This document shows, in pieces, positions 1,638 through 62,750 of a DNA stretch of 64,000 bases. The position numbers were made by a program, and so were the translations under genes. The notes under the pieces are model-generated. The model was not told the DNA's origin. It worked only from the letters and a program-made list of their open reading frames with translations, and ran no database searches. The stretch comes from Branchipolynoe longqiensis (Eukaryota > Annelida > Polychaeta > Phyllodocida > Polynoidae), in NCBI GenBank assembly GCA_030323885.1, contig CM059191.1, positions 101,728,292 to 101,792,291 on the forward strand. Reading direction: 5' to 3'. Numbering within the stretch: the first letter of the stretch is position 1; every line of letters starts with the position of its first letter.

Positions 1638-4600
1638 GTGAGTGATTGCATTATCTTGGACTGGTTGGCTGAGTGTCATGATAGTGTAACTGAGTGGGAT
1701 ATCGGGTACCGGCAGCACTATAAAGTCGTCATAGAGTGCGCACTGTTACAAGTCAGTACCCGTCCTGATCTGGCCTTAGATGTAGCTAGAACATACAACT
1801 CAAACAACAATTATATGGAATCTAGGTCTTTCTACATGTATCGCCTTGTTTATATGAACCATAGTTCTACTGTAGATTAGGCTCAGAAGGAAAACAACAC
1901 CCGAATTTACATGAATACTACCCCTAGTATAAACCTTCAAGTTTCCAGTTGGGAAGGCACCTGTATTAGAACCACAGAATGATGACGTCACTGTATATAA
2001 AGCTAGCCTGCAGCATGCACACCTTCCAATAAAGTTACACACAACAAATTATGACAGACTAAATGATCTTATCAGATGTTTACATTCGCATAATGCATTA
2101 GAACTAGAACACCAATCCCTTGGCACTGGCATTCATTATTGATTATTCTCCTTCTTTTAAATAGAAGAAACATAATGAATATGTTAGGACAGTGCCTGTA
2201 GCTGTATCTTTATGCTTACTGTTCTTCGCTACAGAGGTGTGGAGTGTCCGGCACAGAGGAGGCACCCATATGTGGCACAGGCGCCAGACTTCCCTGGGAC
2301 GATATGCCATCAGCAGTAAACCCAGCCGAAGGTGACCTACGTTATTAAATGTGAACCCAGTCGAAGGTGCTCTATATTATTAAATGTGAACCCAGTCGAA
2401 GGTGCCCTATATTATTAAATGTGAACCCAGCCGAAGGTGCCCTATATTATTAAATGTGAACCCAGCTGAAGGTGCTCTATATTATTAAATGGGAACCCAG
2501 CCAAAGGTGCTCTATATTATTAAATGTGAACCCAGCCGAAGGTGCCCTATATTATTAAATGTGAACCCAGTCGAAGGTGCTCTATATTATTAAATGGGAA
2601 CCCAACTGAAGGTGCTCTATATTATTAAATGTGACCCCAGCCGAAGGTGCCCTATATTATTAAATGTCAACCCAGCCGAAGGTGCTCTATATTAATAAAT
2701 GTGTAAAATATTTAGACAAATGTGTTAGATAATAGTATTGCAATGGACAAATTTTCTGCTCCCTGTGGAGGAATAAAGAGGTTCTCCCTTGTTTTATTCT
2801 TCTGCGATCAGAATAGAAGTGCCCTGTCACTACCGCCCAGCCGAGTTGTGGGTAACGTCTTGCAGGGGAATGCTGCTAGCCATGGGTGGAACGGTCCACC
2901 ATAGTGACTGCCCCTCCTAGTGTGCTGCCACCTGCCGATACTTCTAACTAGTAAGGGTCAGCGCAGTCAAGACTGCCACCATGTGGTAGTGAGGCGCTCT
3001 TACTTTCAGTTAAATTCCCAATTTGATAATTATAATAATAATAATAATGACAATAAACATCCTTTTGCAGAGATACATTAATGCAGTGGTATGCTGCTGA
3101 AGAGCTAAATTAATGCAGGTTTCATCCTGTTGTGGGGATGATTAATGCAGGTGTGGTCCTGTTTTGGTGATACATTAATGCAGGTGGCGTCCTATTGTGG
3201 GGATACATGAATGCAGGTGGCGTCCTATTGTGGGGATACATAAATGCAGGTGGCGTCCTATTGTGGGGATACATTAATACAGGTGGCGTCCTATTGTGGG
3301 GATACATTAATACAGGTGGCGTCCTATTGTGGGGATACATTAATACAGGTGGCGTCCTATTGTGGGGATACATTAATGCAGGTGGCGTCCTGCTGCATGG
3401 ATACATTAATGCCGGTGGCGTCCTGCTGTGGGGATGCATTAATGCAGGTGGGATCTTGCTGTCAGGATACATTAATGCAGGTGCCGTCCTGCTGTGGGGA
3501 TACATTAATGCAGGTGGGATCTTGCGCTCAGGATACATTAATGCAGATGGCGTCCTGCTGCAGTGATACATTAATGCAGCTGGTGTCCTGTTGAAGTGAT
3601 TAATTAATACAGGTGGCATCCTGTTGTGGGGGTACTATAATGCAGGTGGTGTCCTGCCGCAGCAACACATTAATGCAGGCAGCATCTTGCTGTCAGGCTA
3701 CAATAATGCAGGTGGCGTCCTGCTGCAGTGTTAATCTAGTTGCCTAATGGCTCACTATGATGTTAACAAACTTTCTCTGATGATGTTATCAGGTGACCTT
3801 CCCGGAAGTCGCGTCGCCCGGAAGTGTGAGCAGCTAGAAAATCTTGCGCTCGCAGTTGTCCACGTGGCCAAGGAGAATGACGTCATAGTTGACTTCTGCT
3901 CTGGTGGTGTAGGTGAAATTTCTTTCTTAAATGACCTGGCAGATGGAGCCTAGTTATGACTGTTTTGACAGGAATTGGGAATGATTCACTATACTTTGGT
4001 TATTTGATTTTTTTCTGTTATCTAGAGTTATATTTTCTTGGCCACAATTTTTTATTATTGTGAGCTTTTTAAATTCCTAAGTGTCTTTTGACCCATATTC
4101 TATGCTTTTCAATCTGTGTAAAAGCGATGGTTGAATGAAAATGGACAGAATACAAGTTAAGCACTTCTCGCCGTGAATATGGCCTTTGCTGCCAACATGG
4201 CATAAAACTACTTCCATTCCATTTGCAACAAGAACTCGCTACAAATTCACATTCGGTGTGCTATTGAAGTATTTAAAATTATGAAAGGTTTTGATAAAAT
4301 AGATATGAACCAATTTTTCACCTTGAATAAAAGAGAAGGCAGTCGGGGCCATACTCTCAAACTAGTAAAACCCAGAGCCATTTCAAAGTTAAGGCAACAC
4401 AGTTTCTCAAACAGGATCATAAATATATGGAACAGTCTCCCACAAAATGTTATTAATGCCGAGTCAATAAATTCATTCAAGAACAGATTAGAAAAAGCAT
4501 GGGCTGATGATACAGGGAAATTTGACCCCTTATTCACCACATGCTACTAATTATTCCTTGTGTTGCATATTTACTTGCACTCAAGCAAAAATGAGAGACA

Positions 4601-55700: not shown

Positions 55701-58235
55701 ACAATCAATTCATATTTGAACAGAATTAAACATTCACTAAATGAAACTTGGTGCGGCGTCACAATATATTTCAGGGGGAGTCACTTTATTATGCATAATA
55801 AAGTGACTGTGGGGGTCACTATATTAGGGGAGTCAGAGTATAATCTCACACCAGCTGAAGGTACCGAAAACTCGGGCAGTCGTCCAGAGTGCCAGGTGCT
55901 CGTGGGTGCCCCATCAGTATAAAAGAAATTGAAATTGTCATATGCTTAATAATCGTGGCAATGAGGACGACCCAACCAGCGCGCACTTGTTTAATTCATG
56001 CTTGTTAGGTGAGGGCGACTTCCGGAAACAACCCAGTGAGCTATTCTCAGTGTAAATCAGATATAGCAGTAGTTTCGTATTCAGACATAACCTCACATTT
56101 TACTTCAATTATGACAGGTTCGATTAAATGGATTTAGTATGGTTTCTTTTCGTTGGCGATGTTTGTAGAATAGCTGTTTTAGCACTTTTATTTTTACATA
56201 CGTTGTCTTTCATTTCATTCAAAGCAGACATTATGTGATACATTTGAACATAGGGGTCGGGGGGTAAAATCAAAGCACGGTGTATAATCAAACAGATTCA
56301 GGTGTAAAAGAAACAAGTTAGATTTGTTCTTGGCCTACGTGAGGGTGTTTATAACCAAGAGTGCGCGCACTGTCACAAGTCGGTACCCGTCCTGATATGA
56401 CCTTAGATGTTGCCAGGATGTAAAACTCCAACAACCAACAACAACTTGATATGACCTTAGATGTTGTCAGGATGTAAAACTCCAACAACCAACAACAACA
56501 ACCTGAAATGACCTTAGATGTTGCCAGGATGTAAAACTCCAACAACCAACAACAACAACCTGATATGACCTTAGATGTTGCCAGGATGTAAAACTCCAAC
56601 AACCAAGAACAACAACCTGATATGACCTTAGATGTTGCCAGGATGTAAAACTCCAACAACCAACAACAACCTGATATGACCTTAGATGTTGCCAGGACGT
56701 AAAACTCCAACAACCAACAACAACTTATTTTTTTTTTGATGCTGTGTTTATACTGTCCATAGCATGTAAGCTCGAGTGCTCGGGCTTGTTTTCAATGCTG
56801 GCCAGTTTTAGTAGTGGTACCTGATATGACCTTAGATGTTGCCTGGATCTAAAAGCTTCAACAACTAACAACAACAACAACAACCTAATATGACCTTAGA
56901 TGTTGCTAGAACGTAAAACTCCAACAAACAAAATATCCTCTAACCGTCTGTTGGCTTTGTGCACTTGCAGCTGCTGCTAATAATGGGAAGGCTCAGAACT
57001 CGACCTCCCCAGATGACGATGTGTTCAGACATCTGAGCACCACCTACTCCTACAGCCACCCAACCATGTGTTCGGGCGTCGGGTGTCCAAACAACCGCTT
57101 CCCGTCCAGCTTCCCGGACGGCATCGTCAACGGAGCCCAGTGGTACCCGGTCACAGGTGAGTGGCAGCGCAGGCAGCGCACTGCTCTACTACCACTCTAC
57201 ATTATAGGTGGTTGACTGCTCTACTACCACTCTACATTATAGGTGGTTGGCTGATCTGCTACCACTCTACATTATAGGTGGTTGAGTGATCTGCTACCAC
57301 TCTACATTATAGGTGGTTGACTGCTCTGCTACCGCTCTACATTACAGGTGGTTGACTGCTCTGCTATTGCTCTACATTACAGGTGGTTTACTGCTCCACT
57401 ACTGCTCTACATTACAGGTGGTTGACTGCTCTGCTATTGCTCTACATTACAGGTGGTTTACTGCTCCACTACTGCTCTACATTACACGTGGTTGGCTGCT
57501 CTACTCCCGCTCTACATTAGAGGTGGTTGCCTGCTCTACTACCACTCTACATTATAGGTGGTTGACTGCTCTACTCCCACTCTACATTATAGGTGGTTGA
57601 CTGCTCTACTACCACTGTACGTTACATGTGGTTGACTGCTCCACATTACAGGTGGTTGACTGCTCTACTACCGCTTTACTCCCGCTCTACATTAAGGCGG
57701 TTTACTGCTCTACTACTGCTCTACATTACAGCTGGTTGACTTCTCTACTCCTGCTCTACATTAGATGTGGTTTACAACTCTACTTCCACTCTACATTACA
57801 GGTGGTTGACTGCTCTACTACCACTCTACATTACAAGTGGTTTACTCCTCTACTCCCGCTCTACATTACAGGTGGTTTACAGATCTACTTCCACTCTACA
57901 TAACAGCTGGTTGACTGCTCTACTCCCGTTCTACATTACATGTGGTTGACAACTCTACTTCCACTCTACATTACAGCTGGTTTATAGTTCTACTTCTCTT
58001 CTACATTGCGTGCTGTGTACAATTCTACATGTTTTACTACATTACACCTGCTTTACAGTTCTACTTCTGCTCTACCTGACAGGTGGCATGCAGGACTACA
58101 ACTACATCTACTCTGGGTGTATGGAGGTGACCCTCGAACTGCACTGCTGCAAGTATGCACCTTCCTGGTACATCCGGGTTGCCTGGGAGGAGAATCGGGA
58201 GGCGTTCATTAACTACCTCCTGCAGGCACACATAG
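46550..58235 (+). CDS. CPM: carboxypeptidase M-like M14 metallocarboxypeptidase (6 exons, 3' incomplete)
   Basis: Exons 46550-46745, 50067-50164, 52538-52770, 54863-55047, 56971-57156 and 58083-58235 join in one frame (350 codons and one base, phases matching). Seen: a hydrophobic signal peptide (about residues 1-29), [15 protein letters not shown], the zinc motif GNMHGNE (His95, Glu98), DLNRNF (Arg186), the third zinc ligand in SANLHGG (His222), DYNY (304-307) and TLELHCCKY with the expected catalytic Glu318. Established: M14 N/E-type carboxypeptidases remove C-terminal Lys/Arg from peptides at the cell surface or in the secretory path. [19 protein letters not shown] and [10 protein letters not shown] resemble CPM most; a CPD first domain is the main alternative. 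The C-terminal transthyretin-like domain and any membrane anchor should lie past the window. Start chosen: first ATG of the signal-peptide exon, with A at -3. Confidence 0.88.
46746..48589. other. carboxypeptidase intron 1, mostly unassigned
   Basis: GTGATTGTAATTGTC-type tandem words at about 46848-46890 and a TA microsatellite at 48068-48096. No exon or complete element is recognised; several short open frames lack domains. Confidence 0.4.
48590..49320. repeat. degenerate tandem repeat GGGACCAGACTGCAAGAAGG
   Basis: Units of roughly 30-40 bp carry GGACCAGACTGCAAGAA and GGCCTGGGGA variants, with a longer-range order of about 160 bp (CGAGATTGTAATACAGGTTC and GCGAGACTGTACTAATGGTTC). The 189-codon open frame here is repeat-derived. 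Confidence 0.8.
49696..50042. mobile_element. TTAA-MITE (family P) ending 24 bp before exon 2
   Basis: TTAA flanks at 49692-49695 and 50043-50046. Ends AGCTGCATAGTCCAATGA and CCATCGGACTATGCAACT. Only 20 bp (TGTTTCCCATGTCCTTGAAG) separate the right TTAA from exon 2. Confidence 0.93.
50067..50164 (+). CDS. CPM: carboxypeptidase exon 2 (first zinc motif), GC donor
   Basis: Acceptor CCTTGAAG ends at 50066. It encodes [20 protein letters not shown] and then [13 protein letters not shown]. The exon ends GAG|GCAAGT. The frame into exon 3 ([10 protein letters not shown]) needs this GC donor: the nearest GT, 4 bp later, would shift the frame. Confidence 0.9.
50540..51392. mobile_element. TTAA-flanked MITE (family K), copy 3, interrupted by SINE-C
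   Basis: TTAA at 50536-50539 and 51393-51396. Ends AGGCTCAGTCACACATCACC and AAGATGTGACAGGCGC. The core GTTTTGAACATGCACAAAAC and many TCCGGT/GTCCG words match copy 1 at 13123. Confidence 0.88.
50823..51150 (-). mobile_element. SINE-C, copy 3 (nested)
   Basis: The - strand 3' end shows as poly(T), then ATGCTGTCCATAGCATATAA and GAGCTTGTTTTCAATGCTGG. It ends near TAGTTAGTTGGTTTATG. Confidence 0.82.
51511..51890. other. carboxypeptidase intron 2, no recognised feature
   Basis: No coding frame or repeat match. Confidence 0.4.
51893..52232 (+). mobile_element. SINE-A, full length
   Basis: Head GACGGGATGGTCGAATGAGT and body and tail to AAGCTCCAACAACTAGC. A short repeat of AATTTTTAAGTCATTGTTTC disturbs the B-box region (TTCAAATTCTGG). 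Confidence 0.88.
52233..52537. other. carboxypeptidase intron 2, end
   Basis: Segments CCCGAGTAGGTGTGAATGAC and GTGTAGAGTTGGTGAATCTG recall interior sequence of family Z copy A (17460-17600), so a family Z remnant is likely here. Confidence 0.5.
52538..52770 (+). CDS. CPM: carboxypeptidase exon 3
   Basis: Acceptor ACGTGACAG, donor GGCAG|GTAGGA, phase 0 start and phase 2 end. It encodes [19 protein letters not shown] and then [13 protein letters not shown], the conserved strand before the substrate-binding region. Confidence 0.93.
52828..53160 (+). mobile_element. SINE-A disrupted by family Q sequence
   Basis: Head and body are intact to AAGGACTGGTTGGC (52992). Family Q sequence (GAGATAATATTCTGACTCTC, palindrome TTATTATGCATAATAA) intrudes, then the body resumes (AATAATGTGACTGAGTGGGA). 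Confidence 0.75.
53161..53587. other. carboxypeptidase intron 3, related to family Q interior
   Basis: TTTGCTTGAAATAAAAATG and GGAGCCACAATATATTTCAG resemble family Q sequence at 55640-55770. No gene is seen. Confidence 0.5.
53588..54764. mobile_element. TTAA-MITE (family P) split by a solo LTR
   Basis: GTAGTCCGATGAAAACATTA starts the left part; GGTGTCAGAGTTTTGGCATG to CCATCGGACTGTACAACT (TTAA near 54757) is the right part. Removing 53762-54662 and one target copy restores the family consensus junction CTATGGTGT. Confidence 0.88.
53762..54662 (-). mobile_element. solo LTR (family L), copy 5, 4-bp target duplication
   Basis: Left TGTAATATCTCGAGAACTGG, right AATCCGTATATTTTTACA. CTAT (53758-53761) and CTTT (54663-54666) are the target copies. 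On the - strand it carries CCAATAAAGCACAAC with AATAAA. Confidence 0.92.
54863..55047 (+). CDS. CPM: carboxypeptidase exon 4 (third zinc ligand)
   Basis: Acceptor CTGTTTTCTAG, donor GGAG|GTACGT. It encodes [29 protein letters not shown] and [17 protein letters not shown]. It holds the substrate-binding Arg and the third zinc His. Confidence 0.95.
55059..55857. mobile_element. TIR MITE (family Q), copy 3, with nested SINE-C
   Basis: Left GGCTGGTGTAAGATAATATT plus CTGACTCCCATATTAAAG; right AGTCAGAGTATAATCTCACA plus CCAGC. It starts about 11 nt after the exon 4 donor. 55780-55807 is a perfect 28-bp palindrome centred on ATGCAT. A SINE-C occupies 55137-55480. Confidence 0.85.
55137..55480 (-). 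mobile_element. SINE-C, copy 4 (nested), near full length
   Basis: TTTATACTGTCCATAGCATA, GAGGATTTTCTTGTCATATA and GCTTGTACGTAGCTGTGTAG mirror copy 2 at 43376-43721 along its length. Confidence 0.9.
55858..56340. other. carboxypeptidase intron 4, unassigned
   Basis: GACTTCCGGAAACAACCCA with CTATTCTCAGTGTAAATCAG near 56030 also occurs near 49410 (CTTCCGGAAACAACCCAC), so a short dispersed repeat links the two places. Confidence 0.5.
56345..56925 (+). mobile_element. SINE-A tail amplified in tandem, 8 copies
   Basis: From 56390, about 55-60 bp units (CCTGATATGACCTTAGATG, TTGCCAGGATGTAAAACTCC, AACAACCAACAACAAC) repeat six times, then twice more (56820, 56885) after a SINE-C 3' scrap on the - strand at 56727-56820. 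Only the first unit has upstream SINE body (GTGCGCGCACTGTCACAAG). Confidence 0.93.
56971..57156 (+). CDS. CPM: carboxypeptidase exon 5
   Basis: Acceptor GCACTTGCAG, donor GTCACAG|GTGAGT. It encodes [20 protein letters not shown], then [19 protein letters not shown]. The loop before it ([10 protein letters not shown]) is variable. Confidence 0.95.
57195..58078. repeat. 35-bp minisatellite filling intron 5, units carry a 3' splice-site copy
   Basis: About 25 units of GGTGGTTGACTGCTCTACTA plus CCACTCTACATTACA. Each junction, CTCTACATTACAG|GTGG, nearly equals the real acceptor CTCTACCTGACAG|GTGG at 58070-58086. It occupies almost all of the 926-bp intron. The long open frames here are repeat-derived. 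Confidence 0.93.
58083..58235 (+). CDS. CPM: carboxypeptidase exon 6 (catalytic Glu)
   Basis: Acceptor CTACCTGACAG ends at 58082, donor GTAAGG follows 58235, phase 1 end. It encodes [20 protein letters not shown] and then [11 protein letters not shown] and [11 protein letters not shown]. Next exons lie beyond 64000. Confidence 0.95.
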
Positions 58236-59459: not shown

Positions 59460-60710
59460 TCAATCAACTTGATCAATGTCTGCGAAGGGTCTAGGGAGGA
59501 CCTGGGAGCCTGAGGAGGTAGGCCCGGGAGCCGACCCAAAACATAAGACTAAGGCTCTCGGGGCGACCGCCGTCACCTGCCTGGGCACGTAGGCGTGGAC
59601 GGCGTCTGACCTCCAGGTCTCCTGGGCCATTATGGCCGAAAGGTCGACGCCCCTGGAGGTGCAGGCCTGGGCCGCCCCCCGACGCAGGCCGTGCAGGGTG
59701 TATCTTGTATCCTCGGGGACTCCAGCGGCCTCGAGGGTGGCCCGGATCAGGGGCGTGACATCGGGGGGTGTCAGGGGGGTGTTCTTGCGGGCATCACCCA
59801 GGGCCGGCAGAAGGGCGACAGCCCGGTCCCAAGCCCGGACCGGGCACAGGGGCGATCCGGGGAGGGCGGGCACTTACAGCGAGACCGCCTGAGCGGGGGA
59901 GCAGATAGTCTTGGAGGAGGACACCAGGATTCGAAGGCCCCGCGGGGCGCGCTGGACATCGTCGCGGCGGAGGGTGTGCCTGCCACCCCACGGTGCGTTG
60001 GAAGGCGAGCGGTGGTTGGACTGCCTCAGGAACGTGAAGTACGCGATGACGACCGCGGCCCAGGGGGTGACTCCAAGATGTCCCAGGGACCTCATGTGGT
60101 TGTAGATGAGGGGCACCATGGCAGGGGTGATGGCGAGGGCCCTCTTGATCGGGGCGGCGAAGAGCTTTTCCCCGCCCCGGTGGACGCGGTCCACAAAGGG
60201 GGCGTCGAAGGGGGCGGGGTCACCGCCCGCCTCCCGCAACCACGCGCGCGCGCCCGAGACCACATTGGCGACCGAGGCGCAGGAGGGCAGCTCACGGTGC
60301 AGGTGGGCGATAAACTGGCCCATGTCGTAAGGAAGGGGGCGCAGGTGGTCGATGCCCCGCTCCAGCATGAACTCGAGGTACCTCTTCGCATGGCGGGTCT
60401 GGTTCCGCCAGGTCCCGGGGGCGAGGGCGGCCCTATGGATGGTCATGAGGTGGGCGTGCTCTCGCGGATCGTAATCTGAGAAAGGAAGAGAGTTAGATAT
60501 GGTTAGAGAGCAGCTCCGGAGAGTGCGAGACTCTAATTCGACCCAGACCCAGCTCCCGACAGTGATCCTGTACGATTCCCAGGGCGACCCGGGAGGAATG
60601 GGCTCGGCTGAGGGCATCCGCCAGTACCAGTTCGACGCCCGGCTTGTGACGGACAACGATTGTGAATGATCCAAGGGCCGCCACCAGCCAGATCTCTCGG
60701 GCACACGCAC
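59460..60710 (-). pseudogene. DIRS tyrosine recombinase, split by a stop
   Basis: The frame 60710-59874 carries the N-terminal SAM-like part (WRNQTRHAKRYLEFMLERG) and AYFTFLRQSN with the first catalytic Arg. A TAA at 59874-59876 follows SPAQAVSL. The same frame reopens at 59873 with LPGSPLCPVRAW, then the HGLRRG box (H-x-x-R) and the nucleophile region HAYVPR. In the family it integrates circular cDNA without target duplication. The residues are present but the stop should inactivate this copy. Long antisense frames (59691-60479 +) are shadows. Confidence 0.9.
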
Positions 60711-61112
60711 CCAGGGTCAGATCTGCAGCGTGGCCAGATTCGAGGGCGAGGGCCGAGGCCGCATTGTCTGTGTTTACCACGAGCTCGTATCCGCCTGGCG
60801 CGGGGGGTCCGAGTGTCTGTACCGCCATCACCAGGTTGACGCTTCAAGCTCGTGGATCGTGGGGAAGGCCACGGTCATAGTGTCGCTGTAGGCCTCCGAG
60901 TAGCAGAAGTCTCGGGAGAAAGCGCCCCCGCCGGTCAAGCAGGAATCACATGCGATTACCCAGCGGGGGCGGGAAGGGGGTGGAAGGAGGAAGACGCCGT
61001 TTCCCTTTGCCGCGTAGTCGCAGAACCACTGGACGTCGCGTTGCAGGTCGAGGTCCACGTCGGCTCGCCCCGAGAGGGGGGAGGCGCGTAGGCTGGTGAG
61101 GATCCTGCCCAT
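60493..61112 (-). pseudogene. DIRS RNase H, frameshifted
   Basis: First frame (61112-60828): RWVIACDSCLTGGGAFSRD with the first Asp and TIHELEAST with Glu. Second frame (60831-60493): ELVVNTDNAASALALES with Asp and LADALSRAHS with the last Asp. The one-base shift lies near 60830. Together they show the D-E-D-D pattern. Confidence 0.85.
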
Positions 61113-62107
61113 GAATTTCCTCGCGTACGGGATGCAGGTGCTGATGTGCGCCAGTCGGACGACGAGCTACTGGAGGGCCCTCCTCGTAAGGGTGGGGCAG
61201 GCCAGCCAGAGCTCACAGTCCGCCAGGACCTCGCCGAGCTTCCGATCGGGGATGCGCAACACCAGGGCTTCCGTGTCGAGCTCTATGCCCAACCAGACCA
61301 GCCGTACGGTGGGGGGGGGCAGCACTTGTCTGGGGCGAGGGCCAGTCCGAGTCGAGCGCAGATGTCGCGCAGGGCGTCGAAGGCACGCATCGCGTCCAAG
61401 TATGAGGCCTCACACCCGACGAAATCGTCCACATACACCAGGCTGAAGAAACTGCGCTACCGGAGCATCCAAGAGATCGCGTCGGTCACACGCACGCAGG
61501 CCGCTCCCGATGTCCGGCAACCGAAGGGGAGGGCAATGTCCAGATAGAGTTTGTCGTCGACGGTGATACAGAACAGCGGGGTGGACAGGGGGTCCGCCCT
61601 CAGCTGCCTGTAGGCCCGGGAGACGTCCGCCGACCAGCAGAACGCCCCCCGGCCCTCGATCATCATGCGCTTGCCCATGTCCGATGCCGCAGGCAGGGTA
61701 TAGCGCTAAGGGCGACCCAAGTATTCCTTCCGCCGGATGCCCGAGTTCACAATTCGGCCTGGGGGGAAGGAGAGGTCCACTATTATGCGCCACTTCCCGG
61801 GGGCCGATTTAGGTCGGGTCATAATAGGGCTGCATTGCGCCCAAGGCGAAAAAGGAGGGACCTCGAGGGGTCCGAGCAGGGCGCCCCTGCGGAGCTCCTC
61901 CACCGCGTACGCCATGACGTGATGGGCGTAGGCCGGGTCCTCGAGGTGGTTGTGGAAGGTCGGCGTGGGCGGCCTGGCTGCGGTGTAATTCGCCGGAAAT
62001 CTGAACTCCAGGTGATCCGCGAGGGAGCCATCCGGGTGCCCGCGCAGCATCTCACGCCAGGCTGTGATGTTGAGGTCCGAATCGACCGGGACAATAGAGG
62101 CCGACAA
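61113..62107 (-). pseudogene. DIRS reverse transcriptase with an in-frame stop
   Basis: KWRIIVDLSFPPGRIVNSGI (near 61790), FCWSADVSRAYRQLRA (motif A, near 61640), ALPFGCRTSGAACVRVTDAI (motif B) and LVYVDDFVG (motif C, near 61430). A TAG between SWMLR and the YVDD segment (near 61457) interrupts the frame, and another shift lies near 61690. Part of a polyprotein with the RNase H that follows. Confidence 0.88.
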
Positions 62108-62750
62108 TAGAGGCCAGAAACTGTCGAGGGGATCCTTGTACTCGGCCGGGGAGGGGCCGCAGGCGGCGGGGGCCCAGGACTGCTGCAGCGTAGGGTCGAG
62201 TACGAGTACCTGGTCTACCGGTTCGCTCTCGTCTGCGTCTCTCGGGCCGATGCGGTGGGCCGCCTCAGTGACATCGCAGAGACCACAGGTGGCGGGGGTT
62301 GCTGTGGCTGGCGTTGGTTTGAAAGTCAGTGTCCGGCCGGCTGGCTCTTGCTTGTGCCGGCGTGTCCCGGGGCATGTGGTTCTTTACACCGGCTCGCTCG
62401 GGACCAGCGGGAGTAGTGACGTCATTTGGGGGTTCCGCGGGGAACCCACCCAGCCGGAGGCGCGCTGGTTCCAGCGTGCCTGCCGCTAAACACCCTAGTG
62501 GGCGGCCGTGCCGGGACCCAGCGGAGGTCGTGACGTCATGAGGGAAATTCCGAGGCATGCTGGCGAGGCCGGGGAATCAACAAAGCGTCTAATCGGGGGG
62601 CGGGTGTTGGGTCGTCTACAAGGTCACGGTGGGGTCGCGGTGGCATAACTGCCCGCCGGAGGCTTAAAAATGCGACTGCGTTCTCTTACCGGGTTTGTCC
62701 CTTGACTTTTTGGAATAGCAGGAGGCCTCCGAGTGGTTCGTGACTATCTT
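62108..62750 (-). other. DIRS gag-pol spacer
   Basis: GC-rich, with TGACGTCA words at 62417-62425 and 62531-62538, and a similar GCTGG/CCGG environment around each. No definite domain. It may include the end of gag or the pol leader. Confidence 0.45.

Follow-up and report, generated by a model that had tools for sequence, protein, structure and literature searches.

Two genes within a 64,000-nucleotide stretch of the genome of the polychaete Branchipolynoe longqiensis (contig CM059191.1 of assembly GCA_030323885.1, positions 101,728,292 to 101,792,291 of the forward strand), hereafter called the window, have a splice junction that forms part of a 35-bp tandem repeat. The first, which is the main subject here, is a carboxypeptidase M-like gene, whose joined exons match the Pfam family Peptidase_M14 and have carboxypeptidase M (1uwy, 233.5 bits) as their best solved relative. 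One of its introns (57157-58082, 926 nt, phase 1, between QWYPVT and GMQDYNYIY) is for about 97% of its length a 35-bp minisatellite of 26 units, the last of which coincides with the intron's own acceptor. The other gene, which carries the name GSTCD after its label in a preliminary description of this DNA, shows the mirror arrangement with an array at a donor; in Pfam, two of its exon pieces matched nothing above the cut-off. Junctions in these two genes and in the genes used for comparison were placed by AG/GT near the ends of homology, and the features are collected in Table 1.

Regarding the structure of the carboxypeptidase array, Tandem Repeats Finder (TRF) described it twice at period 35, as 57180-57982 with 23.0 copies (82%) and as 57183-58086 with 25.8 copies (79%), and by the same program an array of such length is not a product of chance. 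Cyclic alignment resolved the intron, apart from a single 16-nt scrap next to the donor, into the 26 units, and it held the register with a few small indels until it reached the acceptor. The unit is GTGGTTGACTGCTCTACTACCACTCTACATTACAG, and an intact copy amounts to a whole 3' splice site, that is, TTGAC, a pyrimidine-rich tract, ACAG and then GTGG, the four bases with which the exon begins. We take the TTGAC to fit the branch-point consensus. The exonic share of the unit is GTGG alone, after which the exon reads CATG and the unit reads TTGA. At the acceptor end, the last unit agrees with the consensus in 25 of its 35 bases; the next best rotation reaches 19.

The preliminary description had stated that the entire intron consists of about 25 units of 35 bp, each with CTCTACATTACAG/GTGG (here and below, a slash within a sequence marks the splice junction). 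TRF and the alignment bear out that the array includes the intron's own 3' splice site and that the true acceptor is its terminal unit in register. The word "entire" has to be narrowed by the first 23 nt with the donor, which lie outside the array, and, when the 26 AGs of the intron were scored, only 6 showed the quoted string exactly; CATTATAG occurs in 6 of the 26 aligned unit rows, and an AG stands at the end of 18 of them. A search with the unit through the 1.85-Gb assembly returned the locus itself and one 69% match inside another array. No second genomic copy was found by this search, which scores the best candidates and skips common words and is thus not exhaustive; on the same footing, a dispersed satellite inserted into the intron was rejected, as the unit was not recovered elsewhere.

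Table 1. Features of the carboxypeptidase and GSTCD introns (positions within the window)
Feature	Position	Strand	Basis
Exon 5' of the array intron, ending in ...QWYPVT plus the first base of a Gly codon (phase 1)	56971..57156	+	Translation; Peptidase_M14 and carboxypeptidase M matches
Donor of the array intron, GGTCACAG/GTGAGTGG	57156/57157	+	Translation
Donor end of the intron, 23 nt outside the array	57157..57179	+	TRF start; cyclic alignment
35-bp minisatellite of 26 units, filling the intron and ending on the acceptor and exonic GTGG	57180..58086	+	TRF; register and unit alignment
Nine upstream decoy acceptors at or above the median score (AG ends 57347, 57382, 57417, 57452, 57651, 57731, 57801, 57871, 57976)	57347..57976	+	Position weight matrix
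Last unit, presumed true 3' splice site, CTGACAG/GTGG at 58082/58083	58048..58082	+	25/35 to consensus; acceptor score 9.63
Exon 3' of the array intron	58083..58235	+	Translation; homology
GSTCD donor array, 11 units of 35 bp, the first unit being the real exon end (2331)	2319..2703	+	TRF
Second array in the GSTCD intron, 33 bp, 19.8 copies, unit with CAGGTGG, stopping short of the acceptor at 3792	3072..3722	+	

The order in which intron and array arose can be judged from paralogous domains. One of them, at C10:27.58 Mb, shares the exon junction (...DVAG/GMQDW...) and its phase 1, with the acceptor TTTGTGCAG/GTGGGATGCAAGAT, and TRF listed no array of at least three copies on the 10-kb stretch (L033) around it. 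In a second domain on C10 the donor matches that of the array intron, and in a third, on C7, the intron position is seemingly offset by one codon. Because the C10 paralog shares position and phase without having the array, the intron and its exonic GTGG probably predate the array, and an intron born from the array was rejected on the strength of the same position and phase in the paralogous C10 domains.

As to the growth of the array, the mean identity to the other units is 0.72 for the first unit and 0.67, 0.65 and 0.70 for the last three, compared with 0.76-0.84 for the remainder; two units at an internal indel, with 0.61 and 0.66, are exceptions to this pattern of divergent edges. Divergence of the edge units is the behaviour of a minisatellite in which recent duplications fall in the interior. 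In addition, units two apart are 0.819 alike and neighbours 0.808, which fits growth in steps of 70 bp.

The explanation that we favour, with a probability of roughly 0.8, is an ordinary intron minisatellite, similar to the so-called mirages of amphioxus, that was founded by a segment lying across the 3' junction and is tolerated by splicing to the outermost copy. A founding segment of 35 bp would by happenstance have overlapped the 3' splice junction and taken in the branch point, the pyrimidine tract, the AG and four exon bases, and repeated unequal exchange or slippage would then have added units on the intron side, homogenised the middle and left the edge units drifting. Splicing to the outermost, that is, the last AG would keep the exon intact and turn the upstream copies into intron, so that the duplication would be tolerated; in the mirror case of GSTCD, splicing from the first GT would likewise preserve the exon. 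A tandem duplication across a junction leaves a whole splice site at its outer edge, and in a genome with introns rich in tandem repeats some arrays would be expected to take in a junction. What the sequence shows directly is the anatomy and register of the 26 units, the divergence of those at the edges, the paralog with this intron but no array, and a junction sample (described below) with no excess; the search that found no second copy of the unit and the commonness of arrays also speak for this explanation. We infer the mechanism of duplication, the tolerance by splicing and the precedence of the intron, as well as the use of the last AG, which is presumed from the reading frame.

Several points weigh against this explanation. 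Only four exonic bases are shared, and an origin at the junction, as opposed to the intron just upstream, rests on GTGG, for which a chance match is expected about once in 256. With a 40-base window centred on the acceptor, the best copy matches at 29 of 40 positions and passes the cut used below, while a 24-base window (12+12) on the same centre finds 18 of 24 at best, below its cut of 20, and passes that cut when shifted 10 nt into the intron. The use of the last AG rests on the reading frame. What is more, the junction sample described below is small and partly non-independent, two of its four positives being in one gene and two coming from the preliminary description, and the cut of 29/40 is the score of the weakest positive and was set after the junction comparisons had been seen.

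The small exonic share and the 24-base window that fails at the junction would also suit a different course of events, in which an acceptor-like stretch lying wholly within the intron gave rise to the array, which then spread in the 3' direction and replaced the original acceptor, the match in GTGG being coincidental or convergent. That exon sequence is not required for an array to reach an acceptor can be seen in a kinesin intron, where a 14-bp pyrimidine-rich array (L054 591-731, C16:26.286 Mb) extends up to the acceptor and seemingly supplies its pyrimidine tract. We nevertheless consider such a course unlikely for the carboxypeptidase intron, since the last unit is in register and includes the four exonic bases, and since the exon of the paralog also starts with GTGG without any array.

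Comparable structures are known from amphioxus, where mirages were described in Adh3, the globin genes BflGb6 and BflGb9, troponin C and PGBD5. According to the two reports, an exon-intron boundary, either 5' or 3', is duplicated in mirages by tandem repeats that resemble minisatellites, with AG/GT in many units; the edges of the clusters escape homogenisation, and the units of Adh3 measure 10-72 bp (PMC3087553, PMC3902484). The carboxypeptidase array probably belongs with the described mirages. It duplicates a boundary, has AG/GT copies in its units, and its edges escape homogenisation; the unit spans the boundary by holding the intron end together with GTGG, marginally so with four exonic bases, and the true boundary is the terminal unit, the last unit being the acceptor in register just as the first GSTCD unit is the exon end. 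The differences from mirages are that the gene is carboxypeptidase M-like, that the array fills nearly the whole intron, and that only 4 exonic bases are involved. Boundary-duplicating minisatellites, described in lancelets, would thus extend probably to another animal group. Among the best 120 of 895 homologs, the named entries include no lancelet, many entries bearing no name; the first ten comprise bivalve molluscs, a sea urchin, an ostracod and an annelid, with identities of 53% at most. The assembly gave no match for COX1 and none for the molluscan haemocyanin domain, the latter in a search that also gave none in control genomes.

Some other known systems share part of these properties. 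Internal tandem repeats in human segmental duplications, with a mean of about 30 bp, lie in some cases at exon-intron boundaries and alter intron structure, and they are reported to form novel introns (PMC2812944), whereas here the intron probably came before the array. Tandem duplication of an AG/GT proto-splice site as a route to intron gain was treated by Rogers (1989, as cited in PMC3087553), with Drosophila cases in PMC2891723. Similarly, the ACAG/GTGG units could in principle be both acceptor and donor, although donors within the array are weak; unlike in such intron gain, the position of the carboxypeptidase intron is shared with its paralog, and no new intron position is seen. Work on intron minisatellites and alternative splicing in C. 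elegans describes no boundary copies in the portion available (PMC4039745), and other reports of boundary-spanning arrays were not found in the open-licence literature, as far as its texts were accessible, which is weak evidence of absence. The human IFI6 gene has a donor minisatellite whose unit contains the splice site (1995, as cited in PMC4526556). The GSTCD donor array corresponds to it in having the splice site within the unit, while the carboxypeptidase array differs in carrying acceptors instead of donors. More than one repeat unit of IFI6 is reportedly used as a donor in mRNA.

The GSTCD array had been put forward in the preliminary description as the mirror case with the same unit length, and this was confirmed, with 11 copies; in every unit the GT is preceded by a copy, with 0-2 changes, of AACCCAGCCGAAG, which is 13 bases of the exon. 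Junction duplication is not confined to the window, because an M14 gene on C7 (3249149-3252415, minus strand, covered by stretches L044 and L045) has two introns with a copy of the preceding coding end and donor. In one of them, a segment made up of the final 27 bases of coding sequence and about 35 of the intron reappears some 330 nt further downstream with matching 20-bp units behind it, and a 20-bp array (84 copies) extends over nearly all of this first copy-bearing intron; in the next, a copy of the coding end with its donor lies about 245 nt further downstream.

Two arrays at junctions, of equal unit length and in one window, had led to the suggestion that splice junctions seed minisatellites in this genome, or that introns grow by duplicating junction sequence. 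We examined 106 junctions, namely 13 of the window (7 donors, 6 acceptors), 68 of M14 genes (33 donors, 35 acceptors) and 25 of kinesin genes (12 donors, 13 acceptors), so that, beside the window, the sample draws on about a dozen M14 genes and on short introns of kinesin genes. Among 48 M14 matches 42 were inspected, the rest being 2 of the window's own gene and 4 omitted ones, including C1:156480919, and ends that could not be placed by eye were left out; from 124 kinesin matches, 13 short stretches chosen for short introns were used, and ends that were unplaceable or at the end of a stretch were dropped. A 40-mer centred on each junction was compared with 1250 bases on either side, and at least 29 of 40 matches were counted as a copy; comparisons with introns of other genes gave 28/40 at most, and none of 530 shuffled 40-mers reached 29/40.

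Copies spanning the junction were found at 4 of the 106, which are the GSTCD donor, the carboxypeptidase acceptor and the two donors of the C7 gene, compared with 23/106 at +200 nt into the same introns (Fisher p = 1.2e-4) and 16/105 at +400 nt (p = 0.005 against the junctions); these p values are rough, as positions within one gene are not independent. With the window excluded, the counts are 2/93 at junctions (donors 2/45, acceptors 0/48) and 18/93 at +200 nt. Donors gave 3/52 at the junction, 3/52 at +20, 5/52 at +60 and 9/52 at +200, and acceptors 1/54 both at the junction and at +30, followed by 8/54 at +60 and 14/54 at +200. On the exon side there were none at -40 and -60 and 3/81 at -100, where the 40-mer may pass beyond a short exon. 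The short kinesin introns taken alone gave 0/25 at the junction and 2/25 at +200, and the 24-base window with its cut of 20 gave 3/52 donors and 0/54 acceptors, the carboxypeptidase acceptor being missed. Copies thus grow more frequent on passing from the exon into the intron, and distance 0 does not stand out as a peak; copies at donor junctions are about as frequent as those within the first 60 nt of the intron, and copies at acceptor junctions are rare, as is expected if branch point and pyrimidine tract are constrained. In this small sample, duplications seem to be tolerated at junctions, more at donors than at acceptors, yet they are not concentrated there.

This profile is a first measured answer, from a small sample, to the idea of seeding, and it offers no excess of repeat units that include splice sites, which is the outcome that the preliminary description had named, for the genome as a whole, as refuting it; the suggestion is not supported by this sample, nor by the unit lengths given below or by the paralog whose intron has no array. 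The preliminary interpretation as a whole is partly supported, namely in the anatomy of the carboxypeptidase array and in its GSTCD counterpart. Because the profile has no peak at junctions, it gives them no special role, and under the founding by happenstance that we favour a special seeding mechanism is not called for. An active seeding by junctions, for example via R-loops or breaks tied to splicing or transcription, would make junction units over-represented. It would account for the two window arrays of equal unit length and for two further donor copies in one independently chosen M14 gene, as well as for a motif enrichment given below; we hold it to be very improbable in view of the counts at junctions and at +200 nt, both with and without the window.

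Unit lengths and motifs were surveyed in 50 non-overlapping arrays of 15-120 bp with at least 3 copies. Arrays are common in this DNA; they make up 9.4% of the bases of the window and 12.9% of those in the M14 stretches, with 3.2% in the short stretches from kinesin genes. A period of 35 occurs in 2 of the 50, both in the window, and outside the window 1 of 35 arrays lies at 34-36, so that 35 bp as a unit length habitual in the genome was rejected; the chance of an exact period match between two random arrays of the sample is 0.027, computed after the fact. AGGT, the candidate motif rejected here, is not enriched (12/50 units against 10.56 expected), and this also speaks against seeding. CAGGT was present in 5/50 array units against 1.71 from shuffled units (p = 0.024), 3 of these being in the window, and CAGGTGG in 3/50 against 0.10, 2 of them in the window, this motif having been picked after the finding was seen. 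The three arrays with CAGGTGG are the second GSTCD array, the carboxypeptidase array and one at L044 9365-9756, which was identified from its consensus. This enrichment is the one result that leans towards seeding, or else towards a DNA motif favouring repeat growth. CAGGTGG may act as such a motif rather than as a splice site; in the sole array outside the window, presumably that of L044, it lies antisense to the gene, which is a further point against seeding.

The upstream units of the carboxypeptidase array present a large number of decoy acceptors. A position weight matrix built from 53 other acceptors gives the true acceptor a score of 9.63, the leave-one-out median of those 53 being 7.22, and the AGs upstream of it number 3, 9 and 19 at cuts of at least 9.63, 7.22 and 3.93. 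In 32 other intron stretches of equal length the means at these cuts are 0.44, 2.31 and 7.03, and 1 of the 32 equals or exceeds the array intron at each of the three. When the decoys are read through, 19 of 20 run into a stop, in 12 cases no more than 3 codons on, and the remaining one (58058) would insert 24 nucleotides in frame. Scored as donors, the units do poorly, with 6.32 at best compared with 12.22 for the real donor. The intron is hence an extreme acceptor case, in which many decoys in register are offered to the spliceosome, and it is a natural test of the choice of the last AG.

Such decoys could be functional, in that splicing into the units would yield unproductive transcripts and the number of repeats would tune the output of the gene. 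The nine AGs that reach the median of the 53 acceptors, the three that reach the score of the true one, and the early stop codons speak for such a role. Against it, one of the 32 other stretches is as rich in strong AGs, or richer, at each cut, and amphioxus mirages with AG/GT copies appear to splice normally (PMC3087553); we regard functional decoys as highly improbable. The same strong doubt applies to a rheostat in which upstream units capture the splicing machinery, early stops follow, and copy number sets the output of productive carboxypeptidase.

Some further elements were seen beside these arrays. The sequence TGATATGACCTTAGATGTTGCCAGGATGTAAAAC, which we assume to be probably the 3' part of a short interspersed element (SINE), recurs many times at 56391-56724 and scattered in the window, and a 57-bp tandem array in the intron before the array intron is made of six such copies. 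On the minus strand, reading frames with a VYVDDF motif lie at 59460-62400 in the window, and we presume that they resemble a retroelement reverse transcriptase. Outside the window, about 2.5 kb of the stretch L002 (1-2510, C1:173.98 Mb) consists of short units, diverged from one another, that resemble TTTACTGCTGG.

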